Below, in pieces: positions 1,014-32,408 of a stretch of 52,445 nucleotides of DNA (within the stretch, counting starts at the first letter, position 1; every line of letters begins with the position of its first letter). Below the pieces are notes generated by a model. It made no database searches. It saw only the letters and a program-made list of their open reading frames with translations, and had not been told where the DNA came from. Origin of the DNA: a virus; IMG/VR virus record IMGVR_UViG_3300044630_000786, positions 1 through 52,445 of that record; one strand, given 5' to 3'. Position numbers and translations under genes: made by a program.

Positions 1014-2487
1014 GTTTATTTTCTATGTATTCTTTTGCAATTGGCATAATTAAATCAGTCTCTTTATCAATATCTTTTCTTGTTATTTTTGATTTTCTAA
1101 GTGATTGAATTGAAGTTCCACAAAAAGATGATGCACCCCAAAGATCCCAAGAATCTAAAAACGAACCATTGTAATCGCCACTGTTTATATTAGACCATTG
1201 AGTTGCAGTATCACGATTTCCATATTCATTTTTCCATTCTAAACTATATGGATATGCGCCTGATGAATTTTCTATATCAATCATCGATTCCTTTATTTCT
1301 TCATACCCATACTTAGTAAAGTCTTCACCCATAGCAGAAAGTTTAATTGTTCCATCTTGATTGGAGATCTTTTTTGTTATTGTTAATGGATAAAACACCC
1401 AGTGCTGATCCATCCAATTTTCTTTAAACCATTTAACACTATCGTTTAAAGAATCATAAGATTCTCTAGGCAATCCTGCAATCATAGAAATAGTTGATGC
1501 GTATAAACCAAGTTCTTTATTAAACAACTTTCTCATATCTAATGCTGTTTGTTTATTCTTATCTGGATGCAATCCTTTTCCAATTATCTTTCCGCTCTCA
1601 TGATTAAAAGTTTCTACGCCATAGTAATGACCCCAGACACGAGATTCTAATAATAGTTCTCTCTGTTCTACGTTACTATGAAGTAAATCTAATCTAACAA
1701 ATCCAGTAAAGTTTGGTTTGAACGATAATCGTTTTACAGCTAAAGAAAGTTTCTTTAGTTTCTCATCGTTACTATTAATCGTTTCATCTGCGATTGCGTA
1801 ATTGGTAATACCCCATTTATCATAGTTAGTTTGTAACTCACGATAAATGTCTTCTTCAGATCTAGATGTATCACCCTTTACTCCAAGGATTGGATATGAA
1901 CAATATTTACAATTAAATTTACAACCACGTTCTAATTCAATTGTTAATACATCAGTTGGGCAAAGAAAATCTCGGTCTTCATATTCTATTGAATAAGATC
2001 CATCAACAGTTTCTGGAGGATATGCAGGATACATATGTAATGCATTAATTAACCATCCTCTATTCAGAGGAATGCCTTTTAACTTACCATCAGAGAATGC
2101 ATGTTTTAAAACATCAACAACAGCAAGTTCTCCGTAACCATTAATAAAATAATCTGCGTCAAGATCTTTATAATAAATGTCTTGTCCACCCAATACAATT
2201 TTTATCTCTGGGTATTTTGTTCTTAGTAAAGATATTAAACTTCTATATGCGTTATACTGTGTCAACCACGTTATAGAAATCCCCACCCACTTGATATTAT
2301 TTTTAATGATCCGTGAATTTATAAGTTGGATTATCTGTGATTCTTCCCAGAAAGGAAGGCGATCTATTACCTCAACATCAATAGATAATGTTTTTCTTAA
2401 ATGGTGTGCTATTCTATATGCACCAGATGGTCTCTCCGCAGAATATTCCCAACCGAGAGAAGTAAAGATTAATCCATTTGCGATCAC
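1000..2487 (-). CDS. radical SAM protein with B12-binding-like N-terminal domain
   Basis: 495 aa starting at GTG (2487); no in-frame ATG precedes the conserved N-terminus IFTSLGWEY. Residues 1-130 resemble a cobalamin-binding Rossmann domain (VGISITW, IVLGGQD). The radical SAM core follows, with the CxxxCxxC cluster motif CKFNCKYC at Cys189, Cys193 and Cys196. The architecture is that of B12-dependent radical SAM enzymes (methylases, cyclases, unknowns); substrate unknown. It has no clear SD: its translation start lies only a few nt beyond the end of the tmRNA pseudoknot (2491), so it may be expressed from the tmRNA transcript or depend on that structure. Confidence 0.85.
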   Translation of the reverse strand: MIANGLIFTSLGWEYSAERPSGAYRIAHHLRKTLSIDVEVIDRLPFWEESQIIQLINSRIIKNNIKWVGISITWLTQYNAYRSLISLLRTKYPEIKIVLGGQDIYYKDLDADYFINGYGELAVVDVLKHAFSDGKLKGIPLNRGWLINALHMYPAYPPETVDGSYSIEYEDRDFLCPTDVLTIELERGCKFNCKYCSYPILGVKGDTSRSEEDIYRELQTNYDKWGITNYAIADETINSNDEKLKKLSLAVKRLSFKPNFTGFVRLDLLHSNVEQRELLLESRVWGHYYGVETFNHESGKIIGKGLHPDKNKQTALDMRKLFNKELGLYASTISMIAGLPRESYDSLNDSVKWFKENWMDQHWVFYPLTITKKISNQDGTIKLSAMGEDFTKYGYEEIKESMIDIENSSGAYPYSLEWKNEYGNRDTATQWSNINSGDYNGSFLDSWDLWGASSFCGTSIQSLRKSKITRKDIDKETDLIMPIAKEYIENKLALY

Positions 2488-2490
2488 TGG

Positions 2491-2673
2491 TCACCCAAAA
2501 ATAAAATGCCGACTGATTGGGTGATAAGGACAGTCGGCGAAACCTCAGCTATGCTTTAAGCAGCGATAGCAAATAACTCGTCGTTTGCGGTTATTGATTT
2601 TGCTTGATTTACGGTCATCGCCTACCGTGTTGCCGTCTCTACTATCTCACGCTGTCGAAACCTAGTCACCCCC
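2491..2673 (-). ncRNA. ssrA: tmRNA coding piece with terminal pseudoknot
   Basis: The 5' end at 2673 is GGGGGTGACTAGGTTTCGACAG, a typical tmRNA 5' half; after the tag stop comes an H-type pseudoknot. Its stem 1 is GCCGACTG/CAGTCGGC and its stem 2 TCACCCAA/TTGGGTGA (2491-2498 and the loop of stem 1). Stem 1 followed by ATTTTATTTTT could also act as terminator. Confidence 0.85.
2556..2588 (-). other. tmRNA proteolysis-tag reading frame (ANDELFAIAA)
   Basis: GCA resume codon at 2588-2586 preceded by AATAACC, comparable to AATAGTC in E. coli tmRNA. It encodes A-N-D-E-L-F-A-I-A-A then TAA (2556-2558). The E. coli tag is ANDENYALAA, and the -AA end is what ClpXP-type proteases recognise. Confidence 0.9.
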
Positions 2674-2759
2674 ATCATAAGAATACGAATAGAATTAAAA
2701 CTATAATAGCAAAGCCAATTATAAATCTTGTCAAGTCATCATCCATATCAATCTCCTTA

Positions 2760-2825
2760 TGGTGGAGGTGGGGAGAATCGAACTCCCGTCCAACATGCCT
2801 TCGTTTCGAAGGGATTACAACAATA
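2760..2825 (-). ncRNA. ssrA: tmRNA acceptor piece
   Basis: Encodes the T arm, the 3' acceptor strand CACCTCC (2764-2770), A73 (2763) and CCA (2760-2762). CATGTTG just before the T arm can pair with CAGCGTG of the coding piece to start helix P2. A CCTTCG-AAA-CGAAGG hairpin lies near its 5' end. The 5' limit is approximate and abuts the ahpD stop codon at 2826. Confidence 0.85.
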
Positions 2826-3332
2826 TTAACTATTTAGGACTTTAGCGATACTGTTCATAACAGCAGCAATGCGACCGATGTCACGTAGTTGCTCAACAGT
2901 ATAACCCATTTTCTTTAGTCCATCATAATGCGCTTTAACACAGAAGTGACAATTACCAACAATAGAAGCAGCAAGTGAGTATGACTCAAATCGTTCTTTA
3001 GTAGTACCACCGTGCGTTGCGATTGCGTTCATGCGAAGTTGAGCAGGTAGACCAGCAAGAGCAGGGTCTTCTGCCATTTCAACGTAAGGATACCATACGT
3101 TATTTTGTGCCATTAAACTGGCAGCAGTCATCGCTGCATTTGCATCTACTGGCGCATCTGCTAAGAGAGCACCCAATAGTTTACCGTTACCAGTCGCAGC
3201 TAACGCAGCAACAGCACAGCCGATTGCTTCATCAGGATCTAGAGTGCTGCGCAAAAGCACAGCATCTAAATTTAACTTTGCGTCTTTTGCGTATTCTGGT
3301 AAAACATCTTTAACAGAATCAATAAAAGCCAT
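2826..3332 (-). CDS. ahpD: AhpD-like alkylhydroperoxidase
   Basis: 168 aa, the usual AhpD length. The active-site pattern is present: Glu116, Cys128-x-x-Cys131 (GNCHFC) and His135, with the spacing of mycobacterial AhpD. AhpD acts as a thiol reductant or adaptor that recycles oxidised AhpC and has weak peroxidase activity itself. The ATG overlaps the ahpC stop (TAATG at 3332), so the two are translationally coupled. Presence of the pair suggests protection of the infected cell from peroxide. Cytosolic; no signal peptide. Confidence 0.9.
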   Translation of the reverse strand: MAFIDSVKDVLPEYAKDAKLNLDAVLLRSTLDPDEAIGCAVAALAATGNGKLLGALLADAPVDANAAMTAASLMAQNNVWYPYVEMAEDPALAGLPAQLRMNAIATHGGTTKERFESYSLAASIVGNCHFCVKAHYDGLKKMGYTVEQLRDIGRIAAVMNSIAKVLNS

Positions 3333-5480: not shown

Positions 5481-6269
5481 CTACCCCTTTTGGTTTTCGA
5501 TTTTATCTTCGTATTTAAGTTTCGCAACAATATAGTCTTTGACTAAACTACTGCGGACGATGTCGTCTGGAGAAAATTCAATTCGGGTAAACGCACCCAT
5601 ATGCATAGCGATATCAAAAAATTTTAGAATGCCAGACATATCATTCTTCTTTTTATTTAGATCGGTTTGGCGATAATCGCCACACCAAATAATCTTCGAG
5701 CGATAACCAACACGTGTCATAACTGTATCGATTTCTTCGTATGTTAAGTTCTGCATTTCATCAACAATAATGATAGCATCATCAAACGACATACCTCGAA
5801 TAAATGATGTAGAAATAAACTCAATGTGTCCTTGTTCTTCTAATCTATTATACGCTTCTTTGCGACCAAATAATGTTTCGCAAATCTGCTGATATGGTTG
5901 TCTGTAGATTTCAGTTTTTTCATCAAGATCTCCTGGTAAATGTCCAACCTCTCTTGAAGGAACAGCAGATCTAACAATAATAATTTTGTTAAAAGGATTA
6001 CTCTTATCTAATACTTCTTCAAGTGCTTTATACAAAGCAATAAATGTTTTACCAGTACCTGCTACACCATGTAATGCAACAAAATAATCACCACGCTTAT
6101 ATGCGTCATAAAATAATTTTTGATTTGCGGTAAGTGGCGCAAAGGTTTTTAAATCATCTATTCTTATTCTTAAAGAATTATTCACCGTTTTTAATCTTGC
6201 GTCTGGCTTATTATTATCTTGAAGTACAAACTCTTGGTCCGATGGAGCTTGTGGTGCTCTTTTTGCCAT
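5481..6269 (-). CDS. phoH: PhoH-like ATPase
   Basis: 262 aa. Walker A GVAGTGKT at about residue 70 and Walker B IIIVDEMQN, with the LTANQKLFYDAY entry motif that marks PhoH/RecD-like P-loop ATPases. Very common in aquatic tailed phages. Its role is not settled; RNA-related helicase/ATPase activity has been proposed for the family. Sits directly upstream of the endolysin with a 2-nt gap. Confidence 0.9.
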   Translation of the reverse strand: MAKRAPQAPSDQEFVLQDNNKPDARLKTVNNSLRIRIDDLKTFAPLTANQKLFYDAYKRGDYFVALHGVAGTGKTFIALYKALEEVLDKSNPFNKIIIVRSAVPSREVGHLPGDLDEKTEIYRQPYQQICETLFGRKEAYNRLEEQGHIEFISTSFIRGMSFDDAIIIVDEMQNLTYEEIDTVMTRVGYRSKIIWCGDYRQTDLNKKKNDMSGILKFFDIAMHMGAFTRIEFSPDDIVRSSLVKDYIVAKLKYEDKIENQKG

Positions 6270-27641: not shown

Positions 27642-27715
27642 TGGTAGGGGTACTAGGTAATGCTCCTAGTTTTACTGGTTAAAAGCCAGTTACTTCACTT
27701 TAAAGTTTTACCCCC
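27642..27715 (-). tRNA. tRNA-Lys(TTT) with non-canonical D and T loops
   Basis: All four stems pair (GGGGGTA/TACCCCT with G1-U72; ACTT/AAGT; ACTGG/CCAGT; CTAGG/CCTAG) and the anticodon loop is CTTTTAA. But the D loop TAAAGTG lacks GG and the T loop AGCATTA lacks TTC, so the usual elbow contact cannot form. A73, CCA encoded. Confidence 0.75.
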
Positions 27716-27794: not shown

Positions 27795-28058
27795 TTAATC
27801 TAATACTGCGACAATATCTTCTTGCTTGATGATAACACGCTGAGAACCATCAATGGTAACTACAGCAGCTTTCGCCCACTCAAGCATAATCTTATCGCCA
27901 ACTTTTACTTCAGTAACCAATGGACCAATTGCTAACACGGTACCAGTTTTTGATTCTCCTAGACCTTGCGCACTTTCGATAACAATGCCAGAAGCTGTTG
28001 TGTTCTCACGTTTATTTTCTGCAACTAATACTTTGTCTTTCAATGGTACTACATTCAT
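27795..28058 (-). CDS. groES: GroES-like co-chaperonin
   Basis: 87 aa from ATG 28058 (MNVVPLKDKVLVAENK), SD AGAGG. Mobile loop NTTASGIVIES with the SGIV tripeptide that docks on GroEL, then VGDKIMLEW and KQEDIVAVLD as in GroES. Slightly shorter than bacterial GroES. T4 gp31 plays the equivalent role, remodelling the host GroEL cage for capsid protein. Embedded between tRNA-Thr and tRNA-Pro with no spare bases at its 3' end. Confidence 0.9.
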   Translation of the reverse strand: MNVVPLKDKVLVAENKRENTTASGIVIESAQGLGESKTGTVLAIGPLVTEVKVGDKIMLEWAKAAVVTIDGSQRVIIKQEDIVAVLD

Positions 28059-28088
28059 TAGGTATACCTCTCTCGTCATTAAAAATTA

Positions 28089-28823: not shown

Positions 28824-28908
28824 TGGTGGAGAATACTGGGATCGAACCAGTCGTACCCGAAGGTGGCGGATTTACAGTCCACTGCATCACCATTGATGCT
28901 TCTTCTCC
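28824..28908 (-). tRNA. tRNA-Tyr(GTA)
   Basis: Anticodon loop CTGTAAA, long variable arm, acceptor GGAGAAG/ATTCTCC, A73, CCA encoded. Confidence 0.94.
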
Positions 28909-29607: not shown

Positions 29608-29683
29608 TGGAGTGGGTGACAGGACTCGAACCTGCATTGAACTGATTTGCAATCAGCTACCTAACCATTCAGTGCACACCCAC
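29608..29683 (-). tRNA. tRNA-Cys(GCA)
   Basis: Anticodon loop TTGCAAA, acceptor GTGGGTG/CACCCAC, T73 as expected for Cys, CCA encoded. Its 5' 15 bases overlap the end of the HNH gene. Confidence 0.92.
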
Positions 29684-30235
29684 ATAATCTCTTACTCTAC
29701 TGTTCTTAGGAACACCACTCATCAAATATTCCATTTGGTCAGTCAGAATATTTCTGTTAGACAAAATCATATTCTCATAGTGATTTGGTTCGTAAGGAAC
29801 ATACAACAACTTCATGTTGATATCCTCAAGCAACCTACGTCCCTTTTTCATGTTACAAGGTTTGCATGCAGTAACTACGTTAGTCCACGCATCCTTACCA
29901 CCTTCGCAACGTGGTATCACATGGTCTCGTGATAGATGACTAACTGAAAAATTGTTACCGCAGTAAGCACACAAATGTCTGTCTCTAGAAAAAAGAGTTT
30001 TGTTTGTCAACGCAACTCTACCAAATTTGTCAAGAGACGATGTACCTCGAACAGCAATTATAGAAGGAACCTCGATGCGAGATTCAATACCATCATTGTT
30101 GATACCACCACGGAAGATTTTCAATGTTTCACCTAGCGACCAGATTACCATCTCTTTTGCTTGATAACTTACCGCATCTTCAAAGTTTATCCACTTGCGA
30201 GGTAAACCTGCTGCGTCTAGTGCTAGAACATTCAT
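29669..30235 (-). CDS. HNH endonuclease
   Basis: 188 aa from ATG 30235 (MNVLALDAAGLPRKWINFED), SD AAAGGAAAG; the frame further upstream runs through tRNA-Leu and is not coding. Core: HLCAYCG, then SRDHVIPRCEGG, DAWTNVVTACKPCN, the CxxC..DH..N..CxxC form of HNH enzymes common in large phages. Probably a DNA-cutting enzyme, homing-type or host-directed. Its 3' end overlaps tRNA-Cys by 15 nt, so RNA processing would destroy the mRNA end. Confidence 0.88.
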   Translation of the reverse strand: MNVLALDAAGLPRKWINFEDAVSYQAKEMVIWSLGETLKIFRGGINNDGIESRIEVPSIIAVRGTSSLDKFGRVALTNKTLFSRDRHLCAYCGNNFSVSHLSRDHVIPRCEGGKDAWTNVVTACKPCNMKKGRRLLEDINMKLLYVPYEPNHYENMILSNRNILTDQMEYLMSGVPKNSRVRDYVGVH

Positions 30236-30252
30236 TTTCTTTCCTTTCTTAT

Positions 30253-30336
30253 TGGTACGAGGAGCGGGACTCGAACCCGCACGACTTTCGTCGGGAGATT
30301 TTAAGTCTCCTGTGTCTACCATTCCACCATCCTCGC
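30253..30336 (-). tRNA. tRNA-Leu(TAA)
   Basis: Anticodon loop CTTAAAA, class II variable arm (CGAC/GTCG), A73, CCA encoded. Confidence 0.94.
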
Positions 30337-30344
30337 ATACTTTA

Positions 30345-30373
30345 ATTTTACCCTTACACCTATTTAATGTCAA
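30345..30373 (-). promoter_or_regulatory. sigma70 promoter TTGACA-N17-TAAAAT
   Basis: -35 TTGACA at 30368-30373, -10 TAAAAT at 30345-30350. Would transcribe tRNA-Leu(TAA) and the HNH gene. Confidence 0.6.
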
Positions 30374-30749: not shown

Positions 30750-30843
30750 TGGCGGAGAGCAGAGGAGTCGAACCCCATCCGATTTTAGTCAGAACCCAGT
30801 TTTCAAGGCTGGTCGGCGCACCAACGCACCTGCATTACTCTCC
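30750..30843 (-). tRNA. tRNA-Ser(TGA)
   Basis: Anticodon loop CTTGAAA, long variable region, G73, CCA encoded. D arm is enlarged (GGTGCG/TGCGCC). Confidence 0.9.
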
Positions 30844-30849
30844 ATAACT

Positions 30850-31357: not shown

Positions 31358-31371
31358 AATTTTTAATGAAC
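31358..31371 (-). promoter_or_regulatory. second boxA-like element GTTCATTAAAAATT
   Basis: Matches the element at 29410-29423 at 13 of 14 positions and has the same position, just ahead of a tRNA unit. Confidence 0.5.
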
Positions 31372-31395
31372 GAATGGGACGATGCCCTAAAACAA

Positions 31396-31427
31396 AAAAC
31401 CCTCTAACTTTTCAGGTAGAGGGTTTT
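31396..31427 (-). terminator. intrinsic terminator at the end of the leader RNA
   Basis: 11-bp stem AAAACCCTCTA/TAGAGGGTTTT with a 10-nt loop, followed on the minus strand by TTTTTTG. Its 5' arm also pairs with an upstream segment (see 31396-31574), so termination may be conditional. Confidence 0.8.
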
Positions 31428-31574
31428 GGTAAATAGACCTTGTAGTCTTACATCTGCTTACCAAAACCCCCAGAATCATTCTCAATCGCATATCCAAATG
31501 TTGGACGTGAGCATGACCAGCCACTTAGTAGTGGGAGATGCTGTTTCGTCAACGATATGGATTGTCTTAACATA
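31396..31574 (-). ncRNA. structured leader RNA with mutually exclusive terminator/antiterminator
   Basis: Starts about 6 nt below the -10 at 31580. A long bulged stem builds up stepwise: CAATC-CATATC with GATATG-C-GATTG, then GTTGACG with CGT-C-CAAC, AGCAT with ATGCT, CCACT with AGTGG. After it, GGGTTTTGGTAA pairs over 12-14 bp with TTACCAAAACCC, whose end is also the 5' arm of the terminator. A 41-codon frame (MLRQSISLTK..) overlaps but has no SD. Leads into the tRNA-Gln unit. Could be a riboswitch, an attenuator or a stable RNA such as T4 RNA C/D. Confidence 0.65.
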
Positions 31575-31579
31575 AAAGA

Positions 31580-31608
31580 ATTATACACCTTTTCTGAATT
31601 ATTGGCAA
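31580..31608 (-). promoter_or_regulatory. sigma70 promoter TTGCCA-N17-TATAAT
   Basis: -35 TTGCCA at 31603-31608, -10 TATAAT at 31580-31585, 17-nt spacer. Drives the structured leader and the upstream tRNA unit. Confidence 0.78.
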
Positions 31609-31649: not shown

Positions 31650-32408
31650 TCACTTTCGTAGTTCTGCTAAATTATTTTTCTCAAGCCACTCAATCACAGT
31701 AGCAGTGGGATCTGACCCACACACTGTAAACCTATAAGCACCTGGAAAACTGTGATGGTAACTATGATAGTTCTCACCAAAATTTAGCCAACTCATCTTA
31801 GGTAAGTCCACTATTTTACCTCGACTTTCGCCATAATGGCAAACTGCATTTGCAACACCGAAGGCATGAAAAGCGAACACACCAGCAACACCAATCACGA
31901 ATAAACCAATTATACCACAAACCAAATAAAATGTCAACCAGATTGCAAGAGTTAACCAAAGATAATTCTTGTGGAAGAACTGCAATTCTTTGTTAACGAT
32001 AATATCTCGACACCCAGCGATGTCAATCTTCTTCTCGTCAAGCTGCCACAGATGACAGTAGCTTCTTAGGAAACCAATCTGCCATGGACTATGAGGATCT
32101 CCCTCTTGGTCCAAGTTCTTGTGATGCATTCTATGCACTATCGCCCAACCAAGTGGAGTGCCAATCAAACTGAATAGAGAAAAGAACAACAACCCTTTCC
32201 TTAGCCAAGCATGTTTGATTGTGAAAGTTCTATGCGCAATAGATCGATGTAGGAAACCTGTGACAGCAAACCCACCAAGCATGATAATAGGGATAGCAAA
32301 CAAGATTGCGATCCATTCACCACTCATTATCATCATAATCACAAAGATATGACAAAGAATGCTGAGTGTCGTTCTTGCTACTAACATTGCTTCACTTCGA
32401 TATTGCAT
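31650..32408 (-). CDS. fatty acid desaturase (acyl-CoA delta-9 type)
   Basis: 252 aa with four to five hydrophobic segments and the three His boxes: HRSIAH (54-59), HRMHH (92-96) and ENYHSYHH near the C-terminus. These bind the di-iron centre that inserts a double bond into acyl chains in the membrane. The start is either ATG 32408 or ATG 32387; the second gives a shorter overlap with the dCMP deaminase gene. Late promoter TATAAATA at 32464-32471. Could change membrane fluidity of the infected cell. Confidence 0.85.
   Translation of the reverse strand: MQYRSEAMLVARTTLSILCHIFVIMMIMSGEWIAILFAIPIIMLGGFAVTGFLHRSIAHRTFTIKHAWLRKGLLFFSLFSLIGTPLGWAIVHRMHHKNLDQEGDPHSPWQIGFLRSYCHLWQLDEKKIDIAGCRDIIVNKELQFFHKNYLWLTLAIWLTFYLVCGIIGLFVIGVAGVFAFHAFGVANAVCHYGESRGKIVDLPKMSWLNFGENYHSYHHSFPGAYRFTVCGSDPTATVIEWLEKNNLAELRK

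Follow-up and report, generated by a model that had tools for sequence, protein, structure and literature searches.

The element and its genomic setting

The window, i.e. the whole stretch of 52,445 nucleotides that was analysed, carries on its minus strand 27 tRNA genes arranged as an array, in which all 20 amino acids are represented. This array is preceded by a promoter, a short ORF and an intrinsic terminator, with an alternative helix that overlaps the terminator:

31580-31608 (-), sigma70-type promoter: -35 TTGCCA at 31608-31603, 17-nt spacer, -10 TATAAT at 31585-31580
31448-31573 (-), leader ORF of 41 codons plus TAA, MLRQSISLTKQHLPLLSGWSCSRPTFGYAIENDSGGFGKQM
31521-31534 (-), mid-ORF hairpin (helix 1), CCACU-ACUA-AGUGG, coding for LPLLSG
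31457-31469 (-), arm 2, the 5' arm of the antiterminator, within the last codons of the ORF, GGGUUUUGGUAAG
31421-31433 (-), arm 3, the 3' arm of the antiterminator, UUUACCAAAACCC; its AAAACCC doubles as the base of the terminator stem
31396-31427 (-), intrinsic terminator (helix 3:4), AAAACCCUCUACCUGAAAAGUUAGAGGGUUUU, with further U after it
31376-31387 (-), boxB-like hairpin between terminator and array, GGGCAUCGUCCC
31360-31371 (-), boxA-like site, GUUCAUUAAAAA; in relatives GUUCUUUAACAA, GUUCUUUUACAA and GUUCUUUAAAAA
26694-31342 (-), array of 27 tRNA genes, beginning with tRNA-Gln(UUG) at 31342-31269
27645-27715, tRNA-Lys(UUU) of the array, from Rfam and sequence reading
28827-28908, tRNA-Tyr(GUA) of the array, from Rfam and sequence reading
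about 30757-30845, tRNA-Ser(UGA) of the array, read by eye

The other 24 tRNA genes of the window were found by ARAGORN. A fatty acid desaturase gene (31650-32408, minus strand) lies directly upstream of the element. Within the array, on the same strand, there are a GroES-like co-chaperonin gene (27795-28079) and an HNH endonuclease-like frame (29669-30373), possibly a mobile endonuclease, which overlaps tRNA-Leu(UAA).

A first-pass annotation, made from the letters alone, had recognized a strong promoter, a long helix and a strong terminator at this place, and all three are real. The promoter (TTGCCA-17-TATAAT) has 11 of the 12 consensus bases, and the predicted fold of the 190-nt RNA is at -56.3 kcal/mol (z = -3.51), none of 200 shuffles being as stable. 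When the parts are taken separately, z is -4.2 for helix 2:3, -5.1 for the terminator and -2.2 for the structure upstream of them; the corresponding means for 40 relatives are -4.54, -5.19 and -1.65. The proposed link with the neighbouring tRNA unit is likewise supported, except that the array lies not upstream but downstream of the promoter, where the window coordinates are lower.

Homologues were sought in several collections. A scan of IMG/VR with the sequence of helix 2:3 returned 40 loci (39 homologues), and scans with terminator and peptide motifs raised the total to 143 homologous loci with the ORF, all in uncultured phages, which encode 95 distinct complete peptides. It should be noted that the helix and terminator search patterns impose no selection on peptide composition. 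Among the INPHARED phages, BLAST and tblastn revealed no true homologue, nor did a pattern scan of genome_contigs. Nine relatives of 160-170 kb each contain one copy of the leader and a gene for a T4 gp23-type capsid protein; these near-complete genomes are T4-like. At one locus (L123, about 5850-6075) the element is decayed, with a shortened leader devoid of Arg, no terminator, and a tRNA-Leu-like sequence soon after.

The genomic position of the element is invariant: tRNA-Gln(UUG) is the next gene on the same strand at all 126 loci with enough flanking sequence, while the remaining 17 end too soon. Where at least 6 kb of downstream sequence is available, 22-31 tRNAs are present. One of these arrays (L029, 1924-1998, minus strand) includes a tRNA with a CUA anticodon, classified as tRNA-Pyl by ARAGORN, which is a possible amber suppressor.

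The linker between the terminator and tRNA-Gln is short (median 53 nt) and devoid of promoter-like matches at 78 of the 126 loci, including the window, whereas one or more extra promoter matches follow the terminator at the other 48. In L004, L005, L021, L031, L040 and others, one to four tandem promoter units (TTGACT...TATAAT) are found there, each often preceded by a CCCTAC...GTAGGG hairpin. Promoter-like sites occur also within the array of the window. Because of these additional promoters, the control exerted by the leader on the array must be partial.

Composition of the leader peptide

In the window, the ATG is located 6 nt past the -10 box, so that the start codon falls at or beside the expected transcription start; the message is therefore probably leaderless. 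The same distance is 6-7 nt in 112 of the 126 loci that have no Shine-Dalgarno sequence, and an AAGGA start is found instead at 17 loci. Start, stop and frame are kept across the 95 distinct complete leaders, and the non-synonymous fraction of the changes is 0.53, compared with 0.76 expected.

All 20 amino acids are present in 66 of these leaders, which are only 33-46 residues long, and 19 in the remaining 29 (the window leader, which lacks Val, is among the latter); no leader has fewer. For comparison, 41-residue windows of proteins from the same contigs contain 16.15 different amino acids on average, with a probability of 0.57% for all 20 and of 4.8% for at least 19. Since the leaders are homologous, however, what has to be tested is active maintenance of the inventory. 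When alignment columns were shuffled among 33 leaders sharing less than 80% identity, the mean inventory dropped to 18.15 (sd 0.15) from the observed 19.67, which was reached in 0 of 2000 shuffles. Simulation of independently evolving sites along the tree gave a mean of 18.43 and a maximum of 19.26 in 300 runs, against 19.69 observed; peptides with fewer than 19 amino acids numbered 0 in the real set, against a simulated minimum of 14. The rarest residues are held at exactly one copy (Tyr in 33, His in 32 and Cys in 29 of the 33 leaders), even though each of them is spread over five alignment columns.

The choice among synonymous codons is also broad. The leaders of 41 representatives cover on average 24.6 of 26 isoacceptor classes, compared with 23.06 in usage-weighted shuffles (0/300). 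The coverage extends to AUA, AGA and UUA, and AUA makes up 44% of the Ile codons of the leaders as opposed to 15% in genes of the same contigs. In the window, the leader contains cognate codons for 25 of the 26 distinct anticodons of the array, Val being the sole gap, so that the control codons form a near-complete match to the anticodons of the array under control. Val is absent from the leaders of a whole subgroup, to which the window belongs, and the readable arrays of this subgroup do carry tRNA-Val; accordingly, codons missing from leaders show no pattern of correlation with tRNAs missing from arrays. Taken together, the most strongly maintained feature of the element is the composition of its peptide, not the fold of its RNA.

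All the leaders are homologous to one another. An independent case was looked for upstream of the tRNA clusters of ten tRNA-bearing phages (KVP40, S-PM2, CcrColossus, XacN1, Atu_ph07, GAP32, PA5oct, S-CRM01, phage G and DC31), and none of them has a pan-amino-acid leader with this layout of promoter and terminator. The few ORFs with 19 amino acids found there occur at chance rate; one is directly before the first tRNA of S-CRM01.

The alternative helices and their modelled switching

Arms 2 and 3 pair as a helix of 13-15 bp, and the stop codon of the leader is just beyond arm 2. Among 39 representatives, helix 2:3 is paired at 92.3% of positions, with a covariation of 0.149 as compared with 0.112 in shuffled alignments (0/500); a shift of the register by one brings the pairing down to at most 64%. 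In the terminator, 97.6% of the positions are paired, and double-change cells number 41, against 15.6 in shuffled alignments (0/500). Covariation among relatives, which the first-pass annotation had named as a check of its proposal, is thus present in both helices, and the attenuator logic it had suggested holds: the two helices are mutually exclusive, both covary, and they are always located upstream of the tRNA array. The segment they share is indeed there, but the exclusion is limited to AAAACCC and does not extend over the whole terminator.

In several lineages, arm 2 is shorter by one or two U, and arm 3 has lost the corresponding A. These compensatory indels preserve the helix while shifting the frame at the end of the peptide (GFGK becomes GLDKK, GLASR or VRVRQVN). 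A further peculiarity concerns A2 columns 49/84, corresponding to the wobble base of a GGN codon in arm 2, where U-A (13), A-U (3), A.C (13) and C.A (9) are found and other mismatches almost never; this suggests either an A+.C wobble pair or a selected weakening of the helix.

The region upstream of the antiterminator had been interpreted as a long bulged stem of four successive helices. It is, for the most part, the ORF (31573-31448), and a single 5-bp hairpin is conserved inside it; the four-helix aptamer was consequently dropped. All five pairs of this mid-ORF hairpin are present in the same register in 28 of 41 representatives, with variants such as CCACU/AGUGG, CCGUU/AACGG and CCAUU/AAUGG, and 89% of its cells are paired, compared with 85% (maximum 88%) in shuffled alignments. 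As it ends at about nt 50-56 of the ORF, it may possibly serve as an RNA polymerase pause hairpin.

One might regard the ORF as an ordinary small gene for a conserved 41-residue phage protein, with a promoter and a terminator to itself, whose place beside the array is fortuitous and whose hairpin is incidental. The coding constraint on the ORF, the conservation of promoter and terminator, and the other promoters that serve the array at 48 of 126 loci would agree with this, yet we consider it very improbable. What is conserved in the peptide is its inventory and isoacceptor coverage rather than its sequence, the rare residues shifting from column to column at one copy, and the codons diversify beyond what the peptide would require. 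Moreover, the C-terminus has been frameshifted in several lineages by the very indels that preserve helix 2:3, and it is always the tRNA-Gln of the array that adjoins.

The competition between the two helices was modelled with and without a ribosome. When the footprint of a ribosome was placed on the stop codon, 93 of 93 cases were predicted to form the terminator and 0 of 93 the antiterminator. As long as arm 4 is not yet transcribed, the predicted partner of the shared CCC is arm 2, with a probability of about 1, whether the RNA is free or carries a ribosome that has stalled 15 codons upstream. When the modelled A site is at least 11 codons before the stop, the antiterminator is kept in nearly all cases, and it is lost at 8 codons or fewer. 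A ribosome stalling in the last 8 codons or so before the stop would therefore itself mask arm 2, and a few residues near the end would be poorly sensed; upstream of this masking zone, 17-20 amino acids are present in the leader. In these models, it is the position of the ribosome that decides which helix forms.

At equilibrium, the CCC of the free RNA is contested, with medians of 0.38 for arm 2 and 0.62 for arm 4, which implies that in many relatives the switch must be kinetic. The window is an exception, with 0.96 for arm 2 and 0.04 for arm 4. Because the antiterminator holds without a ribosome, the array is predicted to be ON in the absence of translation.

This default could also be exploited by a more general sensor of translation status, responding to the availability of ribosomes or initiation, or to one or a few key tRNAs, with the composition of the peptide as a by-product: a failure of initiation would by itself be enough to turn the array on, and a single codon for each rare amino acid gives, in theory, low sensitivity to each (PMC1183508). 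There is, however, very little chance that this is the explanation. Such a sensor needs no special composition, whereas all 95 leaders hold 19-20 amino acids, in excess of both the shuffle and the tree nulls, and their coverage reaches even the AUA, AGA and UUA isoacceptors.

It is extremely unlikely that the upstream structure is the aptamer of a ligand-binding riboswitch or of a protein-binding leader, with the ORF incidental: two mutually exclusive helices do precede the terminator, and the upstream part is slightly stabler than shuffles and has a conserved hairpin inside, but the supposed aptamer is a conserved, translated-looking short ORF that has a start codon, shows frame-preserving variation and is under an extreme constraint on composition, which an aptamer does not need, and Rfam provides no matching family. 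The first-pass annotation had found no known riboswitch consensus to match, in agreement with a scan of the window and five relatives against Rfam 15, which gave no riboswitch at gathering score and no families at all other than tRNA and tmRNA; the sub-threshold matches (PyrR, rimP) are noise.

Proposed mechanism and known systems

The element is very probably a ribosome-mediated transcription attenuator of the phage tRNA array, whose leader peptide tests nearly every tRNA. On the level of sequence comparison, the ORF, the constraint on its composition, the diversification of its codons, the covariation of the helices and the position before tRNA-Gln are established; ribosome-dependent switching is what the modelling predicts. 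RNA polymerase would start at the promoter, and a ribosome would load on the 5'-terminal AUG. With all the aminoacyl-tRNAs available, the ribosome would read to the UAA and cover arm 2, leaving arm 3 to pair with arm 4; the terminator would form and only an RNA of about 180 nt would be made. If any one charged tRNA were missing, the ribosome would stall upstream, arm 2 would pair with arm 3 ahead of the synthesis of arm 4, depriving the terminator of its base, and the polymerase would enter the tRNA genes, possibly helped by the boxA-like site. As to the trigger, we infer that starvation, decay of the host tRNAs or a tRNA-cutting defence might each cause such a shortage. The early suggestion that sensing could concern a tRNA was thus a good guess, although the likely sensor is the translating ribosome, which would test nearly all the tRNAs.

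According to attenuation theory, sensitivity comes from many repeated control codons (PMC1183508). With one codon per amino acid, a low sensitivity to mild starvation is predicted; the leader should react when any single tRNA is severely depleted, a behaviour that would fit tRNA destruction better than fine nutritional control. Phage tRNAs can stand in for tRNAs cleaved by defence nucleases of retron, PrrC and other types (PMC11555353, PMC10264068, PMC12409363). It is conceivable, albeit in our judgement somewhat less than an even bet, that the leader, with codons for practically all the tRNAs of the array, is a universal tRNA alarm, in which the depletion or destruction of any tRNA, also by host anticodon nucleases of whatever specificity, induces the full replacement set. 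If this were true, the phage would possess a sensor of tRNA attack with no need to know which tRNA is cut.

A boxA-like string is found in 114 of the 126 linkers (the window copy deviates), and an element similar to the boxB-like hairpin of the window is present in the short-linker relatives. The string resembles the rRNA antitermination site, and it is a possible, putative site for rRNA-type Nus antitermination. As in the boxB-boxA region of rrn leaders, a boxA-like GUUCUUUAACAA and a small hairpin stand right before structured stable-RNA genes; in contrast, the putative phage site follows an attenuator and precedes tRNA and not rRNA genes. At rRNA operons, boxA antitermination involves the SuhB/Nus system (PMC4807359).

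Leaders of the his and thr operons repeat the codons of one amino acid, and that of ilvGMEDA the codons of a few (Ile, Val, Leu). The phage element shares with the enterobacterial trp, his and thr attenuators a short leader ORF, alternative antiterminator and terminator helices, an outcome that is predicted to depend on ribosome position, and an early leader hairpin that could pause the polymerase. However, those attenuators control biosynthesis genes, while the phage leader contains 19-20 different amino acids at about one copy apiece and would govern tRNA genes. In addition, trp superattenuates without translation, whereas the phage element is predicted to be ON by default. The T-box also reads tRNA charging and switches a terminator, but it binds one uncharged tRNA directly and has an Rfam model with T-box motif and specifier stem (which produced no hit here, either at gathering score or at E <= 10); the reader of the phage element would be the ribosome.

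A leaderless short ORF acting as an attenuator has a precedent in the polycysteine ORFs of mycobacteria (Canestrari et al., 2020, PMC8764745, cited in PMC9094748); these are single-amino-acid sensors of operon expression, with no tRNA array and an unrelated sequence. For the tRNA regions of phages (tRNA-Tyr of T5 and SP15), expression from a strong promoter has been described, with no mention of attenuation or of a leader (PMC11555353); a theme that our element may share is the replacement of host tRNAs destroyed by defence nucleases (PMC11555353).

The mechanism of ribosome-mediated attenuation is known; what sets the element apart is its target, i.e. tRNA genes, and its breadth of 19-20 amino acids and about 25 of 26 isoacceptor classes. 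Known attenuators sense one or a few amino acids, and this one would respond at the same time to nearly the full set of amino acids and isoacceptors; no description of a pan-amino-acid leader was found in the literature available as open-licence full texts. The element also provides a clear case of selection acting on the amino-acid inventory of a peptide instead of its sequence. The reason for which phages maintain large tRNA arrays, and the control of these arrays, have long been in question. For a widespread group of uncultured phages of the T4 type, our results suggest that the array serves as an inducible replacement kit, which is called upon when almost any aminoacyl-tRNA runs short. The leader would also provide a general sensor of translation failure that is ready-made.

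The window also encodes a permuted tmRNA of the betaproteobacterial type (2465-2872, minus strand; tag ANDELFAIAA; Rfam beta_tmRNA and tmRNA_permuted), which adjoins a gene for a radical SAM/B12-binding protein (1000-2487). Such a gene for ribosome rescue would suit a phage that has to live with stalled ribosomes.
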